33,804 nt of DNA from Burkholderiales bacterium (lineage in GTDB: Bacteria > Pseudomonadota > Gammaproteobacteria > Burkholderiales > Burkholderiaceae_C): NCBI GenBank assembly GCA_016195825.1, contig JACPYV010000054.1, positions 1 through 33,804 of the forward strand, given 5' to 3'. Both the position numbers and the translations under genes were made by a program. Positions 4,880-26,656 of this stretch are shown here, piece after piece (positions within the stretch are counted from its first letter, which is position 1; the number at the start of each line of letters is the position of its first letter). Below the pieces are notes generated by a model that worked only from the letters and a program-made list of their open reading frames with translations, searched no databases and had not been told where the DNA came from.

Positions 4880-5470
4880 ATGATCGACCGCCGCCAGCAC
4901 CTGCAACATCTCGCCGCCCTGGCCACCGCCTCGGCCCTTCCCGTGGCCGCCGTCGCCGCCGACGACGACAAGGACAAGGATAAGGACAGCACGTACGACG
5001 AGGATTCCATCGTCAAGGCCGCCACCGACTTCTTCGGTCAGACCACCGAGGGCCTGGCCAAGGTCATTGAGAAGGCCTTCAAGGAGCAGGGCCGGCCCAA
5101 TGCCTACATCAAGGGCGAGGAGGCCGGTGCAGCCATCACCGTGGGCCTGCGCTATGGCAACGGCGATCTGGTGATGAAGGGCGGCGGCGCGGCCAAGGTC
5201 TACTGGGCCGGCCCCTCCATCGGCTTCGACCTGGGCGCCAATGCGTCCAAGGTGTTCACGCTGGTCTACCACCTGCCGCGGGCAAGCGCCATCTATCAGC
5301 GCTTTCCTGGCGTGGACGGCAGCCTGTACTACATCGGTGGCGCCTGCATCAACTACCAGCGGCTCAACGGCATCACGCTGGCTCCCATCCGCCTGGGCGT
5401 GGGCCTGCGGGCCGGCGCCAGCGTGGGCTATCTCCACTACCGGCGCGAGAAGAGCATCAACCCCTTCTGA
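4880..5470 (+). CDS. DUF1134 / EipA-like periplasmic protein
   Basis: This 196-residue exported protein belongs to DUF1134, the family of the Brucella envelope integrity protein EipA. Conserved family segments are visible: FFGQTTEGLAKVIEKAF, GRPNAYIKGEEAGAAITVGLRYG, VYWAGPSIGFDLGANASKVFTLVY, YYIGGACINY, and LAPIRLGVGLRAGASVGYL with a terminal NPF. The N-terminus has a twin Arg (MIDRRQHLQHLAAL) and a short hydrophobic stretch ending in AVAA, so export may be by the Tat route; this is inferred. A charged linker of Asp and Lys (about 28-38) follows. AAGGAG at 4863-4868 region and the spacing to the ATG support the start. EipA acts in the cell envelope, but its molecular activity is not established. 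Confidence 0.9.
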   Translation: MIDRRQHLQHLAALATASALPVAAVAADDDKDKDKDSTYDEDSIVKAATDFFGQTTEGLAKVIEKAFKEQGRPNAYIKGEEAGAAITVGLRYGNGDLVMKGGGAAKVYWAGPSIGFDLGANASKVFTLVYHLPRASAIYQRFPGVDGSLYYIGGACINYQRLNGITLAPIRLGVGLRAGASVGYLHYRREKSINPF

Positions 5471-5602
5471 CGCTGGCCGACGCGAGGTTGTGCGCCGCGT
5501 CAAGGTCGGTTGCCGGGCGGGCTGGCAAGCTCCACCTCTTTCGCCGCACGGTCGGGCCGTCAAGTCGTAGACTGTGCTTTTATCCAGTATTCCGAGGCTG
5601 CC

Positions 5603-8600
5603 GTGAGTTCCACCATCGATCTCCCCCTGCAGGACATCAGCAGCGAAGTCCTGATCGAGAAATATGCCAAGGGTGGCGAGCTGCACGCCGACGAACTGCG
5701 CGAACGTGTCGCCCACGCGCTCAGCGCAGCCGAGAAGCCGGCCGACCGCGCCCGCTGGGCGGCCGCCTTCCTGGACGCCCAGAAGCGCGGCTTCGTGCCG
5801 GCCGGCCGCATCATGTCTGCCGCCGGCACCGAGCTGTCTGCCACGCTGATCAACTGCTTCGTGCAGCCGGTGGGCGACTCCATCGCCACGCCCGAGGACG
5901 GCGTGCCCGGCATCTACACCGCGCTGACCGAGGCCGCCGAGACCATGCGCCGCGGCGGCGGCGTGGGCTACGACTTCAGCCGCATCCGCCCGCTGGGCGC
6001 CTGGGTGGGCTCCACGCGCAGCCATGCATCGGGTCCCATCAGCTACATGCGCGTGTTTGACCGCAGCTGCGAGACGGTGGAGAGTGCCGGCAGCCGCCGC
6101 GGCGCGCAGATGGGCGTGCTGCGCTGCGACCACCCGGACATCGAGGCCTTCATCCACGCCAAGGACGAAGGCGACCTGCGCAACTTCAACATCTCCATCG
6201 GCGTCACCGACGCCTTCATGGAAGCGGTGCAGGCCGACGGCATGGTCGAGCTGGCGCACAAGGCCCAGCCCAGTGCCGAGCAGATCGAGGCCGGCGCCTA
6301 CCAGCGCGGCGACGGGCAGTGGGTCTACCGCAAGGTCAAGGCGCGTGCGCTGTGGGACCAGGTCATGCGCTCCACCTACGACCACGCCGAGCCGGGCGTG
6401 CTCTTCCTGGATCGCATCAACGCCGACAACAACCTGCACTACTGCGAAACCATCGCGGCGACCAACCCTTGCGTGACAGGTGACACGCGGTTGGCGACGC
6501 AGCACGGCCTTGTGCCCATCGCCTGGCTGCAAGCCAATGGCGCGGCGCTGGAATGCACGGTGGATCGGCGCGCTCTGGGCGACGAGCAGCGAGGCACGTT
6601 CACGCGGCCAGCGGTGCCGGCCTTTCTGAGCGCTGGCCGGGCGGAAGTGTTCAAGGTCACGACTGCTGAGGGCTATGAGATCAAGGCCACGGCCTGGCAT
6701 GAGTTCTACACGGCGCGTGGCAAGCTCAAGCTGTCCGACCTGCAGCCTGGCGATGAGCTTTGGGTTCAATCGGGCAAAGGCCAGTTCGGCGCTCAAGGCA
6801 GCGAGTCGCTGGGCACGCTGCTGGGGCTCATCACGGGCGATGGCCACTTCACGAATCGTGGCAAGGGCGTGCAGGCTGCGGTCGTCAACCTTTGGAACGA
6901 AGAGCGCGAGCTGGCTGATGGCATTGCCGGCTTCATCAACACGCTCATTGCCGGCATCGCGAATTCGTCACGTGAGTACGAGGTCAAGCCGGTGGCCGTT
7001 GCATCGCGCAACCTGGTGATGATTCGCTCGATCATGTTGGCCCGCGCGCTGGCCAGCTACGGCTTCAACGCCCAGACCAAGTTGGCCGTGCCCGAGGTCG
7101 TCTGGCAGGGCAGCGAGGACTGCATGCGCGGCTACCTGCGCGGCTTGTTCCAAACGGACGGCACCGTCGATGTGTCCTCCAGCAGCCAGAGTTGCTCCGT
7201 GCGGTTGTCGTCTATCCACCGGCGCTTGCTGCAGGACGTGCAAGTGTTGCTCGCCAACTTCGGCGTGTTCTCACGTATCCACGAAAGGCGCCAGGGCAGC
7301 ATGCGCAGCCTGCCCGACGGCCATGGCAGCCGGCGTGACTACGGCTGCCAGACGGTGCACGAATTGATCGTCGACGGTGAATCGCGCGAGACCTTCATGC
7401 GCGAAGTCGGCTTCCTGTTGCCTGCCAAGCGGGAGAAGTACGAGGCTTGGGTCAAGGACAAGGCGCTGCTCGAGACGCAGCGCTTCACGGCAACCATCAA
7501 TGCCATCGAGTTGGCTGGCGTCGAACCCGTCTACGACACGACCCAGCCCGACGGCAACACCGTCATCTTCAATGGTCTGGTGACCGGGCAATGCGCCGAG
7601 CAGCCGCTCCCGCCCTACGGCTGCTGCTGCCTCGGCTCCATCGACCTGACGCGCTTCGTGCGTGACCCGTTCGCGCCCAAGCCCGCGTTCGACGAAACCG
7701 GCTTTGCCGAGGTCGTGGCCGTGGCCACGCGCATGCTGGACAACGTGCTGGACGTGACGCCCTGGCCGCTGCCCGCGCAGCAGCAGGAGGCGGCCAACAA
7801 GCGCCGTGTGGGCCTGGGCTTCACGGGCCTGGGCGACGCCCTCGTCATGCTCAACCTGCGCTACGACACGCAGGCCGCGCGCGACATGGCCAGCCGCATC
7901 AGCGAGGTCATGCGCGACGCTGCCTACGCGGCCTCCAGCGACCTGGCCGCGGAGCGCGGCAGCTTCCCGCTGTTCAACGCCGACCTGTACCTCTCGGGCG
8001 GCAGCTTCGCGTCGCGCCTGCCGCAAGGCCTGAAGGACAAGATCCGCGCCCAGGGGCTGCGCAACTCGCACCTGCTGTCCATCGCCCCCACCGGCACCAT
8101 CAGCCTGGCTTTTGCCGACAACGCCAGCAACGGCATCGAGCCAGCCTTCTCCTGGGCCTACACGCGCAAGAAGCGCCTGCCGCAGACTGAGGGTGGCGGC
8201 TTCAAGGAATACCAGGTCGAGGATCATGCCTGGCGGCTGTACCGCCACCTGTTCGGCACCGACGCGCCGCTGAGCGACGCCTTCGTCACGGCACTGGAGT
8301 TGAGCGCGGCCGACCACGCGTCCATGGTCGCGGCCGTGGCGCCCTACATCGACACGTCGATCAGCAAGACAGTCAACGTGCCGGCCGATTACCCCTACGA
8401 GGACTTCCAGAACCTCTATATCCAGGCTTGGCAGACCCAGCTCAAGGGCCTGGCCACCTACCGGCCCAACAGCGTGCTGGGCTCGGTGCTCAGCGTCACG
8501 CCGGAGGTCAAGCAGCCGGAGCCCCTTCGGCCCGACTCGGGTGCCGATGGTGGCGGGGCTAACCAGCGCCTGCGGGTCGAGCGCCTGCCGCAGGCCGTCG

Positions 8601-9634
8601 TGGCGTCGCTGCGCTGGCCAAGCCGTCCCGAGATGCCAGGCGGCAACCCGGCCTGGAGCTACCTGATCCATCATCCGCACGGTGACTTCGCGCTCTTCAT
8701 CGGCGAGCTGCCGCTGGACGGTCCGGATGGTGGTCTGTTTGGGCGCAACCTGCCGTTCGAGGTCTGGGTCAATGGCGCCGAGCAGCCACGCGGCCTGTCG
8801 GCCCTGGCCAAGACGCTGTCCACCGACCTGCGCACCAACGACGCGGCCTGGCTGCGCCTCAAGCTCGACGCGCTGGCCACCGTGGCCGAGGAGCGCGCCT
8901 TCGAGATGCCCATGCCGCCCGGCGGCGAGAAGCGCCTGTTCCCCGGCGTGGTCGCCGCGACGGCGGCCGTCATCCGCTGGCGCTGCGAGCAGCTCGGCGC
9001 CCTCGGCGAAGGTGGCCCCACGCCGGTGGTGGACGCCATGTTCAGCCGCAATGAGCCGCGCACGGGCGTGTCCGGCACGCTGGCCTGGGCGGTGGACGTG
9101 GACAACCCGGCCACCAACGAGCAGTTCACGCTGACGCTGAAGGAGGTCGTGCTGCCCACACCCGACGGCGGCACCGTCATGCGCCCCTGCGCAATGGGCT
9201 TCTCGGGCAACTACCCCAAGGCGCTGGATGGCCTGGCCCGGCTGCTGTCGCTGGACATGCGCGTCATGGACCCCGGCTGGATCGCGATGAAGCTGCGCAA
9301 GCTGCTCAACGTGGGCGAGCCGCTGGGCCACTTCATGGCGCCCGTGCCGTCGCTGAACGGCGAGCGTCGCCAGCAGGTCTGGCCGTCTACGGTGGCCTAT
9401 GTGGCGCGCCTCATCATCCACCGCTACGCGATGCTGGGCATCCTCGACGAGGAAGGCCAGCCACTGACCGACATGGGCCTGCTGCAGACCCCAGCGCCCA
9501 AGCTGGCCGCGGCGGCCGGAAGCCTGCAGGTGCAGGCCGGCAGGCCCTGCCCGGAGTGCGGCAACGCCACCATGATCCACAAGGATGGCTGCGATTTCTG
9601 CACGGCCTGCGGTTACGTGGGGCAGTGCGGCTGA
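5603..9634 (+). CDS. nrdJ: Class II (adenosylcobalamin-dependent) ribonucleotide reductase with an intein
   Basis: The enzyme reduces ribonucleotides to deoxyribonucleotides using a B12-generated thiyl radical. The 1343-residue precursor would yield a mature enzyme of about 969 residues once the intein at 6470-7591 is removed. Core motifs include [10 protein letters not shown], the [13 protein letters not shown] loop and, after splicing, the radical-site N-P-C-A-E followed by QPLPPYGCC. The phosphate-binding APTGTIS segment (about 8092) is also present. The C-terminal third has two TSCPD-like units (about 8620-8900 and 9040-9350) and a zinc-ribbon tail with four CxxC/CxC cysteines (CPECG, CTACG, ending GQCG). 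I chose GTG 5603, which has GAGG six bases upstream and gives the family's [17 protein letters not shown] start; the frame is open from 5510. No B12 riboswitch or NrdR box is apparent in the 132-base gap upstream. Confidence 0.93.
6470..7591 (+). mobile_element. Intein with LAGLIDADG homing endonuclease inside nrdJ, Gln-terminated
   Basis: This in-frame 374-residue insertion splits N-P from C-A-E at the radical-site cysteine of NrdJ. It starts with Cys1 in [10 protein letters not shown] (block A) and has a block B TxxH at T74-H77. Endonuclease motifs LLGLITGDG (117-125, D124) and [10 protein letters not shown] (222-231, D230) are both intact. Block F is [16 protein letters not shown]. The end reads NGLVTGQ followed by the extein Cys, so the last residue is Gln and the penultimate one Gly, in place of the usual His-Asn. 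Gln-ending inteins are known (the Chilo iridescent virus ribonucleotide reductase intein is the classic case). By eye the insert is somewhat less GC-rich than the flanking exteins, fitting horizontal mobility. Splicing must occur for active enzyme. Confidence 0.92.
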
Positions 9635-17337: not shown

Positions 17338-20300
17338 ATGACCGACGCTCCACCCTTCAGGAAAGTTCTCGTCGCCAACCGCGGGGAGGTCGCGCTGCGC
17401 GTGGTGCGGGCCTTGTCCGACTTGGGTGTCGCCAGCGTTGCCGTCCATGCGGCAGAAGATAGTGCGGTGGTGGCGGACGAGGTCGTTGCGCTGCCTGCCA
17501 CTGGGCCGATGGCCTACCTGGACATCGCCGGCCTGGTGGCCGTCGCGCGTCGCACAAGTTGCGACGCCGTCCACCCCGGCTACGGCTTCTTGAGCGAGAG
17601 CGCCGACTTCGCGCAAGCCTGCGCAGCGGCCGGTCTCGTCTTCATCGGCGCCACGCCGGACCAGCTCGCGCTGTTTGGTGACAAGGCCCGTGCGCGCACG
17701 CTCGCGCAGCAGTGCGGCGTGCCCGTGCTCGCGGGCAGCGCGGGCGAGGTGACGCTCGTTGAGGCGCAGGCGTTTCTTGCGGCCCAGGGCGGGCAGGGCG
17801 TCATGCTGAAGGCCATCGCCGGTGGTGGCGGCCGCGGCATGCGCGCGGTGTGGGCGGCGGACGAGCTACCCGCCGCCTTCGAGCGCTGCCGCTCCGAGGC
17901 CCGCGCGGCCTTCGGCGTGGCCGGCGTCTACGTCGAGCAGCTGATGCACGACGCGCGCCACATCGAGGTGCAGGTCATCGGCGACGGCCGCGACGTGGTC
18001 GCGCTGGGCGAGCGCGACTGCACGCTGCAGCGGCGCTTTCAGAAGCTGGTCGAGATCGCGCCCAGCCCCGTGCTGGGCGACACGCTGCGCGCCCGGCTGA
18101 CCGACGCCGCGCTGCGCATGGCCCGCAAGGTGGGCTATCTGGGCCTGGGCACCTTCGAGTTCCTGGTCGATGTGGCGCGTGGCGAGTTCGTCTTCATCGA
18201 GACCAACGCGCGCCTTCAGGTCGAGCACACAGTCACCGAGGCCGTCACGGGGCTGGATCTGGTGCAGCTGCAAGTCCAGCTCGCCACCGGTCGCAGCCTG
18301 GCCGAGCTGGGGTTGAGCGAGCCGCCACATCCGCAAGGCTTCGCCATCCAGTGGCGCATCAATGCCGAATCCGCCAGCGGCCGGCTGGACCGCTTCGAAT
18401 TGCCCACCGGGCCCGGCGTGCGGGTGGACAGCCACGGCGTGGCCGGCAGCACGCCGTCGCCGCACTACGACAGCCTGTTGGCCAAGCTCATCGTCAGCAC
18501 GCGCGGCAGCCGGTTCGCAGACGTGCAGCGGCGCTCGCAGCGGGCCCTGGCCGAATGCCGTATCGAGGGCTTGGCCACCAACCTTGCGGTGCTGCGCATG
18601 CTGGCCGCCCGGCCCGAGCTGGGCGGCGTCCAGCTGCACACCGGCTGGCTGGAGGCGCACCTGGCCGAGCTGCTGCCTGCCACGGCCGCTGCGCCCGCCG
18701 ACCCGCAGGCCGTGCCTGCGACGATGGCGGGCCGGCTGCTGCAGTTCAGTGTGGCTTCCGGCGACGTGGTGGCGGCCGGCGCCGAGCTGGCCGTGGTCGA
18801 GGCGATGAAGATGGAGCACGTGATCGCCGCGCCGCACGCCGGCCGCGTGCTCGCCCTGGCCGCCGAGCCCGGGAGCTTCATCGATGCCGGCCAGCGGCTG
18901 CTGACGCTGGAACCAGTGGCCGATGTGGGCGGCAAGGCCATGGAGGCTGCGGCGCAGGACGGCGATCGCATCCGCCCCGACCTGCAGCGGCTGGTCCATC
19001 GCCTGGCCTTCACGCTCGACGCTGCCCGCCCGGATGCCGTCGCCAGACGCCATGCCCAGGGCTTGCGCACGGCGCGCGAGAACATCGCCGACCTGTGCGA
19101 CACCGGTTCCTTTATCGAGTACGGCGCGCTGGCCGTCGCCGCCCAGTCGCGCCGCCGCTCGGCCGAGGACCTGATCGCCAACACGCCGGCCGACGGCATC
19201 GTGACCGGCATCGGTGCCGTCAACGGCCGCGACTGCGGCGCGGAGGCTTCGCGCACCGTCGTCATGGCCTACGACGCCACTGTGCTGGCCGGCACCCAGG
19301 GTGCGCGCAACCATGCCAAGACTGACCGCATGCTGGGCATCGCCGCCGAGCAGCGCTTGCCCGTGGTGCTGTTCGCCGAAGGAGGCGGCGGCCGGCCGGG
19401 GGACACCGACATGCCCGTCGTCGCGGGCCTGCATGTGACCACCTTCGCCAGCCATGCGGCGCTGTCCGGCCGCGTGCCCGTCGTGGGCATCGCGGCGGGG
19501 CGCTGCTTTGCCGGCAACGCGGCGCTGCTGGGCTGCAGCGACGTCATCATCGCCACGCGGCGCAGCAACATCGGCATGGGCGGCCCGGCCATGGTGGAGG
19601 GCGGCGGGCTGGGGGTCTTCAAACCCGAGCAGATCGGCCCGGCCGAGGTGCAGCATGCCAACGGTGTCATCGACGTGCTGGTCGACGACGAGGCCGCTGC
19701 CGTCGCCGCGGCCCGGCGCTACCTGGGCTTCTTCCAGGGGCGCACGGGCGACTGGCAAGCCCCTGACGCGCGTGCGCTGCGCCTCGTGGTGCCCGAGAAC
19801 CGGCTGCGCGTCTACGACAGCCGCGCGGCCGTGCAGGGCTTGTTCGACACCGACAGCGTGCTGTTCCTGCGCAGCGGTTTCGGTGCGGGCCTGCACACGG
19901 CGCTGGCGCGGCTGGAGGGCCGGCCGGTCGGCGTCATCGCCAGCAACCCTGGCCATCTCGGCGGGGCCATCGATGCCGACGCGGCCGACAAGGCCGCACG
20001 CTTCATGCAGTTGTGCAACGTACACGGCCTGCCGCTGGTCAGCCTCATCGACACGCCAGGCTTCATGGTGGGACCCGATGCGGAGGCGCAGGCGCAGGTT
20101 CGCCACGTCAGCCGCCTGTTCGTGACGGCCGGCGCGCTGCGTGTGCCCTTCTTCGCCGTCGTGCTGCGCAAGAGCTATGGCCTGGGCGCGATGGCGCTGG
20201 CTGCCGGCGGGCTGCACCGGCCGGTGTTCACGCTGGCCTGGCCCAGCGGCGAGTTCGGCGCGATGGGCTTGGAGGGGGCCGTGCGACTGGGCTTTCGCAA

Positions 20301-20514
20301 GGAGCTGGAGGCGCTGCCGGCCGGGCCGGAGCGTGAGGCGCTGTTCCAGCGGCTGGTTGCGCAGCAGTACGTCAACGGCGAGGCGATCAACCTGGCGGCG
20401 ACGCTGGAGATCGACGCCGTCATCGACCCGGCCGAGACGCGTGCCTGGCTGGCGCGCGGCCTGGCCTCGGCGCACGTCCGTCCTCTTGAAGCCCGTTTCA
20501 TCGACACCTGGTGA
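17338..20514 (+). CDS. Single-chain acyl-CoA carboxylase (biotin carboxylase-BCCP-carboxyltransferase fusion)
   Basis: All three activities of a biotin-dependent acyl-CoA carboxylase lie in one 1058-residue chain. Biotin carboxylase (about 8-450): FRKVLVANRGEVALR, the ATP-grasp glycine loop AGGGGRGMRAV, RRFQKLVEIAPSP, and RLQVEH. Biotinyl domain (about 463-527): the VVEAMKMEH motif with the biotin-accepting K491. Carboxyltransferase (about 545-1058): GARNHAKTDRMLGIA, GGPAMVEGGGLGVF, SLIDTPGFMVGP and WPSGEFGAMGLEGAV. Only about 20 residues separate the first two domains, leaving no room for a BT domain as in long-chain carboxylases of mycobacteria. The substrate is not predictable; acetyl-, propionyl- or longer acyl-CoA are all possible. 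An NTF2-like gene overlaps its stop. Confidence 0.9.
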   Translation: MTDAPPFRKVLVANRGEVALRVVRALSDLGVASVAVHAAEDSAVVADEVVALPATGPMAYLDIAGLVAVARRTSCDAVHPGYGFLSESADFAQACAAAGLVFIGATPDQLALFGDKARARTLAQQCGVPVLAGSAGEVTLVEAQAFLAAQGGQGVMLKAIAGGGGRGMRAVWAADELPAAFERCRSEARAAFGVAGVYVEQLMHDARHIEVQVIGDGRDVVALGERDCTLQRRFQKLVEIAPSPVLGDTLRARLTDAALRMARKVGYLGLGTFEFLVDVARGEFVFIETNARLQVEHTVTEAVTGLDLVQLQVQLATGRSLAELGLSEPPHPQGFAIQWRINAESASGRLDRFELPTGPGVRVDSHGVAGSTPSPHYDSLLAKLIVSTRGSRFADVQRRSQRALAECRIEGLATNLAVLRMLAARPELGGVQLHTGWLEAHLAELLPATAAAPADPQAVPATMAGRLLQFSVASGDVVAAGAELAVVEAMKMEHVIAAPHAGRVLALAAEPGSFIDAGQRLLTLEPVADVGGKAMEAAAQDGDRIRPDLQRLVHRLAFTLDAARPDAVARRHAQGLRTARENIADLCDTGSFIEYGALAVAAQSRRRSAEDLIANTPADGIVTGIGAVNGRDCGAEASRTVVMAYDATVLAGTQGARNHAKTDRMLGIAAEQRLPVVLFAEGGGGRPGDTDMPVVAGLHVTTFASHAALSGRVPVVGIAAGRCFAGNAALLGCSDVIIATRRSNIGMGGPAMVEGGGLGVFKPEQIGPAEVQHANGVIDVLVDDEAAAVAAARRYLGFFQGRTGDWQAPDARALRLVVPENRLRVYDSRAAVQGLFDTDSVLFLRSGFGAGLHTALARLEGRPVGVIASNPGHLGGAIDADAADKAARFMQLCNVHGLPLVSLIDTPGFMVGPDAEAQAQVRHVSRLFVTAGALRVPFFAVVLRKSYGLGAMALAAGGLHRPVFTLAWPSGEFGAMGLEGAVRLGFRKELEALPAGPEREALFQRLVAQQYVNGEAINLAATLEIDAVIDPAETRAWLARGLASAHVRPLEARFIDTW

Positions 20515-24376: not shown

Positions 24377-26656
24377 ATGAAATCCACCCACAGGCTGTGG
24401 CGCTGGCTCGGCCTCATCTTCGTGCTGTCGTTCGGGGCGCTCGGCTACCTCGGCTGGCAGATCCACCTCAGCGCACCCCCCATCCCCAAGGCCGTCGTGA
24501 CGACGGACGGTGAAACCCTTTACACCGGCGAGCAGATCCAGTACGGCCAGCAGGCCTGGCTGTCCGCCGGCGGCCAGCAGCTCGGCACCGTCTGGGGCCA
24601 CGGCAGCTATGTCGCGCCCGACTGGTCGGCCGACTGGCTGCACCGCGAGGCCACAACGCTGCAGGCGCTGCGCGCCGAAGAGCAGCGCCGCGCGACGCCG
24701 CAGCTGGGCGCCGCCGAGCAGGCCGCCGTCGATGCCCGCGTGAAGGCCGAGATGCGCCTGAACACCTACGACGCCGAGACCGGCGTGCTGAAGGTGTCGC
24801 CGGCGCGCGCGCAGGCCATCCGCGCCGTTGCGGCCCACTACGCGGGCCTGTTCGGCACCGACCCGGCGCTGGCCAAGCTGCGCGAGCAGTACGCGATGAC
24901 CGAGGGCGCTTTGCCCGAGGCGACCGACCGCCAGGCGCTGACCGGGTTCTTCTTCTGGGCCGCCTGGGCTACGGCGACGGACCGCCCCGGCGAGGCCGGG
25001 CTGTCCTACACCAGCAACTGGCCGCACGAGCCGCTGGTGGGCAACACCATGACCACGACCTCGGCGATGTGGTCCATGGCCAGCATCGTGCTGCTGCTGG
25101 CCGGCATCGCCGCGATGCTGTGGCTGCACGGCCGCGAGGCGCACGAGCCCGAGGCCGTTGTGCCCAAGGCCGACCCGCTGGCCGGCATCAAGGCCACGCC
25201 GTCCATGCTGGCCACACGCAAGTATTTCTTCATCGTCATCGCACTGATGCTGCTGCAGATCGGCATGGGCGTCGTCACGGCGCACTACGCGGTGGAGGGC
25301 CAGTCCTTCTTCGGCCTGCCGCTGGCGCAGATCCTGCCGTACACCATCAGCCGCACCGTGCACACGCAGATCGGCGTGTTCTGGATCGCCACCGCGTGGC
25401 TGGCCACTGGCCTGTACGTCGCGCCGCTGCTGTCGGGGCGCGAGCCGCCGCTGCAGAAACTGGGCGTGGACCTGCTGTTCTACGCGCTGGTCTTCGTCGT
25501 GTTGGGCTCCACCGTGACCGGCTGGCTGGGCACGCTGCAGCACCGCGGCGTTGACTTCAGCTTCTGGCTGGGCAACCAGGGCTTGGAATACACCAGCATG
25601 GGTCGGATCTGGCAGTACCTGCTGTTCGTCGGCCTGCTGCTGTGGGTCGTGTTGCTGGGCCGCGCACTGTGGCCGGCGCTGAAGCGCCCCTCGGAGACGC
25701 GCGGCATGATTGCCATGGTCTTCCTGTCGGCGACCTGCATCGGCGGCTTCTACGCCTCGTCGCTGGCCTGGGACCAGCACAGCCACTACTCAATGGTCGA
25801 GTACTGGCGCTGGTGGCTGGTGCACCTGTGGGTGGAGGGCTTCTTCGAGGTCTTCGCCACAGCCGTGGTTGCACTGATCTTCACCAACTTGGGCCTGGTG
25901 CGCGCCGAATCCGCCAACCGTGCCATCGTCGCCGAGACCATCGTCTTCCTGTTCGGCGGCATCCTGGGCACGCTGCACCACCTGTACTGGACCGGCACGC
26001 CCACCTCTGTCATCGCCGTGGGTGCTGTGTTCTCGGCGCTGGAAGTGGTGCCGCTGACGCTGATCGGCTTGGAAGCCTTGCAGACGTATCGCCGCTCCAA
26101 GGGCGTGGTCTGGCTGGAAGCCTACAAGTGGGTCGTCCTCAGCTTCGTGGCCGTCGGCTTCTGGAACACCGTGGGCGCCGGCCTGCTGGGCTTCGCGATC
26201 AACCCGCCGGCCTCGCTGTACTACGTGCAAGGCCTGAACATGACGGCGGCCCATGGTCACGCGGCGCTGTTTGGTGTCTACGGCATGCTGGGCATCGGCC
26301 TGATGCTGTTCTGCCTGCGAGGCCTGTTCGAGCGCAGCCTGCATGCCGACCGCCTGCTGAAGCCCGCCTTCTGGAGCCTCAACATCGGCCTGGCGATGAT
26401 GGTCTTCCTGTCGCTGCTGCCCGCCGGCATCTACCAGGCCTGGGCCAGCATGACCCAGGGCCTGTGGTTCGCCCGCTCGCCGGAGATCATCCACTCGCCG
26501 GTGATGGAGACCCTGGTCTGGATGCGCGTGCCGGGTGACATCGTGTTCGCCGCCGGCAGCGTCTGCCTGGCCGTCTACGCCTTCTTCCTGTTGCGCCGGC
26601 CCGCCGGCCGCACGCAGGCCGTGGGCGGTGTGACGGCCACCGCAGCACGCCGCTGA
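24377..26656 (+). CDS. norB: Quinol-dependent nitric oxide reductase (qNor)
   Basis: The 759-residue inner-membrane enzyme reduces NO to N2O with electrons from quinol. It has the qNor layout: a signal-anchor helix, an N-terminal periplasmic domain (about 30-230, a cytochrome c-like fold without heme motif), then twelve-odd helices of the heme-copper oxidase type. Landmarks are HTQIGVFWIATAWLATGLYVAPLL, LQHRGVDFSFWLGNQGLEY, VEYWRWWLVHLWVEGFFEVFATAVVALIF (with the conserved Glu and His) and ILGTLHHLYWTGTP. The HGHAALFGVYGMLGIGLMLFCLRGL segment also fits. No norC precedes it, consistent with the quinol type. It is the second gene of the FNR-box operon and is probably used for NO detoxification or denitrification. 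Confidence 0.94.
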   Translation: MKSTHRLWRWLGLIFVLSFGALGYLGWQIHLSAPPIPKAVVTTDGETLYTGEQIQYGQQAWLSAGGQQLGTVWGHGSYVAPDWSADWLHREATTLQALRAEEQRRATPQLGAAEQAAVDARVKAEMRLNTYDAETGVLKVSPARAQAIRAVAAHYAGLFGTDPALAKLREQYAMTEGALPEATDRQALTGFFFWAAWATATDRPGEAGLSYTSNWPHEPLVGNTMTTTSAMWSMASIVLLLAGIAAMLWLHGREAHEPEAVVPKADPLAGIKATPSMLATRKYFFIVIALMLLQIGMGVVTAHYAVEGQSFFGLPLAQILPYTISRTVHTQIGVFWIATAWLATGLYVAPLLSGREPPLQKLGVDLLFYALVFVVLGSTVTGWLGTLQHRGVDFSFWLGNQGLEYTSMGRIWQYLLFVGLLLWVVLLGRALWPALKRPSETRGMIAMVFLSATCIGGFYASSLAWDQHSHYSMVEYWRWWLVHLWVEGFFEVFATAVVALIFTNLGLVRAESANRAIVAETIVFLFGGILGTLHHLYWTGTPTSVIAVGAVFSALEVVPLTLIGLEALQTYRRSKGVVWLEAYKWVVLSFVAVGFWNTVGAGLLGFAINPPASLYYVQGLNMTAAHGHAALFGVYGMLGIGLMLFCLRGLFERSLHADRLLKPAFWSLNIGLAMMVFLSLLPAGIYQAWASMTQGLWFARSPEIIHSPVMETLVWMRVPGDIVFAAGSVCLAVYAFFLLRRPAGRTQAVGGVTATAARR

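Follow-up and report, generated by a model that had tools for sequence, protein, structure and literature searches.

The window analysed here, the whole 33,804-nucleotide stretch of contig JACPYV010000054.1 from a Burkholderiales bacterium (assembly GCA_016195825.1), contains an nrdJ gene, assigned to the class II, B12 (adenosylcobalamin)-dependent ribonucleotide reductases (RNRs), that is interrupted by an intein ending in Gly-Gln. This intein probably splices by the class 1 pathway, its last residue, Gln, likely taking the part of Asn in the cyclisation step, and is predicted to spread into empty nrdJ alleles by means of its endonuclease. The Gly-Gln end is not a product of chance, since a protein search scored on the intein region (1789 matches) finds it directly before the +1 Cys in 120 of the 120 homologues listed, as in the window.

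An intein at the likely radical-site cysteine of NrdJ

Two profiles identify the intein: TIGR01445 (intein_Nterm), for its N-terminal part, at 37.7 bits (cut-off 24.5), and LAGLIDADG_3 (PF14528), for the endonuclease, at 100.4 bits (cut-off 22.5), the match to the latter being split over two stretches. An AlphaFold2 (AF2) model of it has a predicted local distance difference test score (pLDDT) of 91.3, and the structures that match it best, across model residues 4-379, are inteins. It has what is expected of a class 1 intein: Cys1, Cys+1, the block B Thr and His, a last residue able to cyclise (the final codon, caa at 7589-7591, encodes Gln) and the intein fold. A penultimate His, typical of the class but not required, is replaced by Gly373. 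Both acidic residues of a two-motif LAGLIDADG endonuclease, Asp124 and Asp230, are present. The features of the interrupted gene are as follows, with conservation counted over 231 sequences of the intein's family (described below).

5603-9634, forward strand: nrdJ, a single open frame without internal stops
5603..6469, forward strand: N-extein of NrdJ, ending ATNP
6470..7591, forward strand: intein, 374 residues, Cys1 to Gln374, identified by profile matches and missing from four same-genus alleles
6470..6472, forward strand: Cys1, the block A nucleophile, in 231/231
6689..6700, forward strand: block B, T74-x-W76-H77 (TxxH); T74 and H77 in 231/231, W76 in 229/231
6812..6847, forward strand: first LAGLIDADG motif (PF14528) with Asp124, in 225/231
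7133..7171, forward strand: second LAGLIDADG motif with Asp230, in 227/231
7529..7558, forward strand: block F, Asp356 being F:4, without a His at 362 or 363 (one is there in 166/231 relatives)
7571..7591, forward strand: block G, NGLVTGQ, with Thr372, penultimate Gly373 and terminal Gln374
7592..9634, forward strand: C-extein of NrdJ, opening with the +1 Cys (CAEQ), which aligns with residue 322 of Thermotoga maritima NrdJ

The other intein classes were considered. Class 2 inteins have no nucleophile at position 1, and this class is excluded by the presence of Cys1. Class 3 inteins carry a Trp-Cys-Thr triad at B:12, F:4 and G:5, and the Thr at G:5 prompted us to consider them; F:4 is Asp in 231/231 family sequences and Cys1 is present, which rejects this class as well. 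In the window intein the residue two past H77 is Phe79, and of the triad solely the G:5 Thr fits.

The nrdJ start was chosen as the GTG at 5603; the open frame itself begins at a TTG at 5510. The product passes the NCBIfam equivalog TIGR02504 (NrdJ_Z) with 562.7 bits (cut-off 399.95). An uninterrupted ATNPCAEQPL stands at the insertion point in 4 of 20 genomes of the same genus. In one of these empty-site relatives (L026), comparison with solved structures matches the Cys that follows TNP to residue 322 of the T. maritima enzyme (PDB 1xje), which we take to be the radical-site cysteine. The intein therefore parts N-P from C-A-E and sits directly before the likely catalytic cysteine, and given this site unspliced NrdJ would be inactive. 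The sequence-only reading had proposed an intein at 6470..7591 with a Gln end, Gly for the penultimate His, and this same placement; its coordinates proved exact at 374 codons, both terminal residues are read directly at the junction, and the placement agrees with the alignment to T. maritima NrdJ.

A family with Thr-Gly-(Gln/Asn) ends

That reading had also described Gln ends as known and uncommon. They are indeed known, but within the intein's own lineage at this site they are not uncommon, as the 120 listed homologues attest. A more distant member of the family was found in a Campylobacterales relative (L009), 35% identical to the window intein in the best segment and ending in Gly-Asn. Its host is an NrdA-type RNR, which passes TIGR02506 (613.0 bits, cut-off 341.05) and fails the NrdJ model, and the intein lies at the matching site, SSNL|C. 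A search from L009 gave 982 matches; most of the 120 listed have Gly-Asn at NL|C, some have Gly-Asn or Gly-Gln at NP|C, and Gly-Gln at NL|C occurs in a few. Among these few, P0231 scores above the cut-off of the class 1a model NF006578 (891.7 against 813). Sampling is biased, in that homologues were chosen by likeness to the window and to L009, and the listings cover 120 of the 1789 matches to the first and 120 of the 982 matches to the second.

Six of 240 proteins, with one or both junctions unmatched by our pattern, were dropped (P0130, P0134, P0213, P0217, P0221 and P0240); among them the C-terminal junction is Gly-Gln in P0217, Ser-Gln in P0240 and Gly-Asn in P0130, P0134 and P0213. Another protein (P0018) escaped one junction pattern, yet ends in Gly-Gln in the homologue listing. 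The final set, with loci included and duplicates removed, holds 273 sequences, of which 231 belong to this family and 42, ending in His-Asn (41) or Ser-Asn (1), to a second one. Cys+1 is found in all 273. Invariant in this family are Cys1, T74, H77, the F:4 Asp and Gln359. Its penultimate residue is Gly in 228, Ala in 2 and Met in 1, position 372 is Thr in 227 and Ser in 4, and the last residue is Gln in 129 and Asn in 102. As side observations, one relative (L007, 466-1587) ends in Thr-Ala-Gln in place of Thr-Gly-Gln, and in four RNRs of 1527-1533 residues (P0096, P0100, P0120 and P0226) the intein begins at around residue 760, hinting at a further insert ahead of it in the same protein.

The last residue goes with the insertion context. 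Gln is found at 127 of 136 NP|C sites (125 Gly-Gln and 2 Ala-Gln, the rest being 9 Gly-Asn), and Asn at 93 of 95 NL|C sites (92 Gly-Asn and 1 Met-Asn, with 2 Gly-Gln); this association may reflect shared descent only. On a quick tree of 102 representatives and 6 His-Asn sequences, built with the last three residues omitted, the Gln/Asn state changes at least 5 times, against a minimum of 26 in 100 shuffles, so the state tracks descent and has flipped several times while the Gly stayed constant. The five changes rest on that tree, in which 40 of 105 inner branches have support below 80, and the five independent Gln/Asn pairs lie on its starred branches. We rejected the proposal that a class II host causes the Gln end: of 200 pairings, most showed no difference in host context in any of the 5 independent pairs, and in a few one pair ran opposite to the expectation, five pairs being too few to reach 0.05. 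A block F His at 362 or 363 is found in 72 of 129 Gln-ended against 94 of 102 Asn-ended sequences, and an independent-pairs test of this His against the last residue gave no signal (median p 0.625, range 0.125-1).

These counts bear on whether the last residue cyclises at all. Excision could instead complete its third step without cyclisation of Gln, slow hydrolysis and attack by a different side chain being two examples. The penultimate Gly and the 57 of 129 Gln-ended sequences that lack a His at both block F positions speak for this, and other mechanisms are allowed for Glu, Gln and Asp ends in PMC4031507. A position that does not cyclise is expected to drift, and this one is Gln or Asn in 231/231, exchanging at least 5 times; Asp and Glu were never seen though the junction pattern admitted N, Q, D or E, and where the pattern set no condition on the last residue, the listed proteins again had N or Q directly before the radical-site Cys. 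We consider this alternative very unlikely, and prefer cyclisation of the terminal Gln.

Three alleles for one codon within a genus

Among 20 genomes of the genus, the window's own (G000) included, the Gly-Gln intein is present in 4 (G000, G001, G009 and G012), a His-Asn intein in 11, and an empty site in 4; the remaining genome (G015) has no detected NrdJ match, just a weak NrdA-like one. The His-Asn intein (loci L014-L023 and L025) occupies the same nrdJ codon, NP|C, has 380 residues and is 32-35% identical to the window intein. It has the canonical ANGLYVHN end and the block F His, whereas the window intein has neither His. The one copy that was scanned (L014) carries the same endonuclease family (PF14528, 81.7 bits). 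Exteins are 85-96% identical to those of the window across the genus (85-95% for empty-site alleles), the exception being the C-extein of L025 (82%), whose contig stops inside nrdJ. Allele states change 7 times over 19 rows of the extein tree, and ten printed shuffles gave 7 or 8, so the state barely tracks descent. Beyond the genus, counting any match at an expectation value of 0.001, weak intein and endonuclease matches among them, 20 of 398 phylum genomes and 50 of 299 family genomes were hit.

This distribution is that of a mobile element, and it bears on the suggestion of the sequence-only reading that splicing acts as a redox switch, for which we found no specific support. Splicing would then be restrained by a redox event such as a disulfide between Cys1 and Cys+1, with unspliced NrdJ held as a reserve and activated when the cell is reduced. 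Both nucleophiles are Cys, one of them the likely radical-site cysteine. By analogy only, the Gln-ended PolII intein of Pyrococcus abyssi has been described with a disulfide that joins Cys1 to Cys+1 (PMC8175363). Control of NrdJ splicing would also matter, as no other RNR was found in the window's genome: a class I small subunit (PF00268), a further large subunit (PF02867) and a class III enzyme (PF13597) were all sought without success, in an assembly 93% complete. This lack may be an assembly gap; at least some NrdA-like matches appear in same-genus genomes, among the matches listed. If NrdJ really is the sole RNR, splicing is obligatory, which would argue for a reliable reaction. Against the switch, the same two Cys flank the His-Asn intein in 11 of the 20 genomes, so the pair is not tied to Gly-Gln and the Gln form gives no pointer to redox control. 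Four genomes do without any intein, with NrdJ exteins 85-95% identical, and the scatter of states on the extein tree is unexpected for a retained regulator. We therefore regard a redox switch as very unlikely.

Probable homing, and selection

One pair of inteins in the genus points to recent homing. The inteins of loci L011 and L012, which come from two species, differ at 5 of 1122 bases (nonsynonymous divergence, dN, 0; synonymous divergence, dS, 0.018), while their exteins have a dS of 0.271, with 24 of 600 bases differing upstream and 58 of 750 downstream. Close to the junctions, the 120 bases that lead into the intein differ at 1 position and the 18 bases that follow it at 3. Near-identical inteins within diverged exteins are as expected from recent transfer by gene conversion. 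This pair is the exception among 61 same-type pairs within the genus; in the other 60 the ratio of intein to extein dS is at least 1.41. Since such ratios are general, the higher intein dS seen in comparisons with the window is not taken as a sign of separate intein arrivals.

Relative to the window copy, intein dN/dS is 0.087-0.106, so the intein protein is being kept; the exteins have low values as well. Two shortened inteins, L064 (1486-2352, forward strand, 276 residues) and L065 (1099-1893, reverse strand, 252 residues; both sets of coordinates include short flanks), are without the first endonuclease motif and show changes in the second, while block B and Gly-Gln|Cys are retained. With the LAGLIDADG model (cut-off 22.5), L064 passes (30.0) and L065 fails (19.2). 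They fit a late stage of the homing cycle.

Proposed mechanism

We propose the following course for the class 1 pathway, in which the residues named for the first two steps are present and the chemistry is putative. (i) Cys1 would attack the Pro-Cys bond, aided by the block B Thr and His. (ii) Cys+1, the later radical-site cysteine, would take over the N-extein. (iii) Gln374 would cyclise to aminoglutarimide, as judged from other Gln-ended inteins, freeing the C-extein without help from a penultimate or block F His. (iv) Rearrangement of the thioester (S-to-N shift) would then yield ...ATNPCAEQ..., as it stands in the empty alleles of relatives. (v) The element would spread by homing, as suggested by its scattered presence and absence together with the one near-identical intein pair in diverged exteins.

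Step (iii) has precedent. The last residue of an intein is Asn as a rule, with Gln, Asp and Glu accepted, and Gln ends are grouped under the same mechanism, with alternatives to it allowed for inteins that end in Glu, Gln or Asp; a penultimate residue other than His is found in about 5% of functional inteins (PMC4031507). The sequence-only reading had concluded that Asn cyclisation in its standard form is impossible here. A correction is due on this point: cyclisation of Gln to aminoglutarimide is itself an accepted form of this step (PMC8175363, PMC4031507).

Several observations weigh against the proposed pathway. The C-terminal intein model TIGR01443 scores below its cut-off (13.5 against 15.6), as does the Pfam model Intein_splicing (30.4 against 35.8). 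Both histidines usually credited with helping step (iii) are absent from the window copy, which has Gly373 at the penultimate position and Gly-Asn at block F positions 362 and 363. For every member of the family, splicing is a prediction. As to homing, intein dS exceeds extein dS in 60 of the 61 pairs, and just one pair favours recent transfer.

The low TIGR01443 score would also suit a decaying intein that has lost splicing, with NrdJ lost and another RNR serving in its stead. We hold this to be extremely unlikely: dN/dS is low in intein and exteins alike, the frame is open, Gly-Gln is kept throughout the listed homologues, and the 93% complete genome offers no other RNR. Class 1 splicing with a cyclising Gln remains the preferred reading.

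Neighbourhood of nrdJ

A gene for the envelope-integrity protein EipA (4880-5470, forward strand) immediately precedes nrdJ. Farther downstream are a 1058-residue frame uniting biotin carboxylase, biotin carrier and carboxyl transferase domains (17338-20514, forward strand) and a nitric oxide reductase NorB-like gene (PF22085, COX1; 24377-26656, forward strand). Low-oxygen life, to which the NorB-like gene could point, would be in keeping with reliance on an RNR that needs no oxygen.

Relation to known inteins and significance

We compared the window intein with described systems. (i) The RNR intein of Chilo iridescent virus is Gln-ended (PMC4031507, PMC549080) and so resembles the window intein in last residue and in host enzyme; it splices better with Gln than with Asn (PMC4031507). 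Its host is an insect virus, and the comparison is by description only. (ii) The PolII inteins of P. abyssi, P. horikoshii and Methanoculleus marisnigri likewise have Gln last, and that of P. abyssi shares Cys1 and Cys+1 with the window intein; those of P. abyssi and M. marisnigri splice slowly and improve with Asn (PMC8175363, PMC4031507). They differ in host, DNA polymerase II, and the Pyrococcus pair has the penultimate and block F His, both of which the window intein lacks (PMC8175363). (iii) The NrdJa intein of Azotobacter chroococcum NCIMB 8003 (residues 321-690, about 370 residues) interrupts a B12-dependent NrdJ at roughly the corresponding position, has a LAGLIDADG-3 endonuclease like that of the window, and is missing from the A. 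vinelandii ortholog (PMC4465626); this comparison too is by description only. (iv) The RNR intein allele rir1-b is recorded from 55 Bacteria, Betaproteobacteria included, 15 Halobacteria and 5 other Euryarchaeota, and its identity with the present NrdJ codon could not be confirmed (PMC4071816).

Gln ends, a missing penultimate His, RNR inteins and the Azotobacter NrdJ intein (PMC4465626) are thus already known from these sources. In the open-access literature we found no described Gly-Gln NrdJ intein, no Thr-Gly-(Gln/Asn) lineage at the RNR radical cysteine, and no case of two dissimilar inteins competing at this codon. As far as open-access searches show, the novelty lies in a large lineage in which Thr-Gly-(Gln/Asn) has become fixed, the window copy also lacking the block F His.

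We tentatively suggest, as a possibility somewhat short of an even chance, that the RNR radical-cysteine inteins form a separate mechanistic line, Thr-Gly-(Gln/Asn), in which the penultimate His has been abandoned for good. A Thr-Gly turn would position Gln or Asn, flips between the two being harmless, and the block F His would be gone as well in the window copy; within one genus, Gly-Gln intein, His-Asn intein and empty site would contest a single codon.

Gln-ended and non-His inteins have been viewed as recovery stages after loss of a catalytic residue (PMC4031507). The near-fixed Thr-Gly of this family (227 and 228 of 231), together with at least 5 exchanges between Gln and Asn, suggests a stable alternative active site, not a recovery stage. 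The genus amounts to a natural experiment, with NrdJ exteins mostly 85-96% identical that hold an intein of either type, Gly-Gln or His-Asn, or no intein, and it would allow the rate, accuracy and cost of the two active sites to be compared within one host protein.
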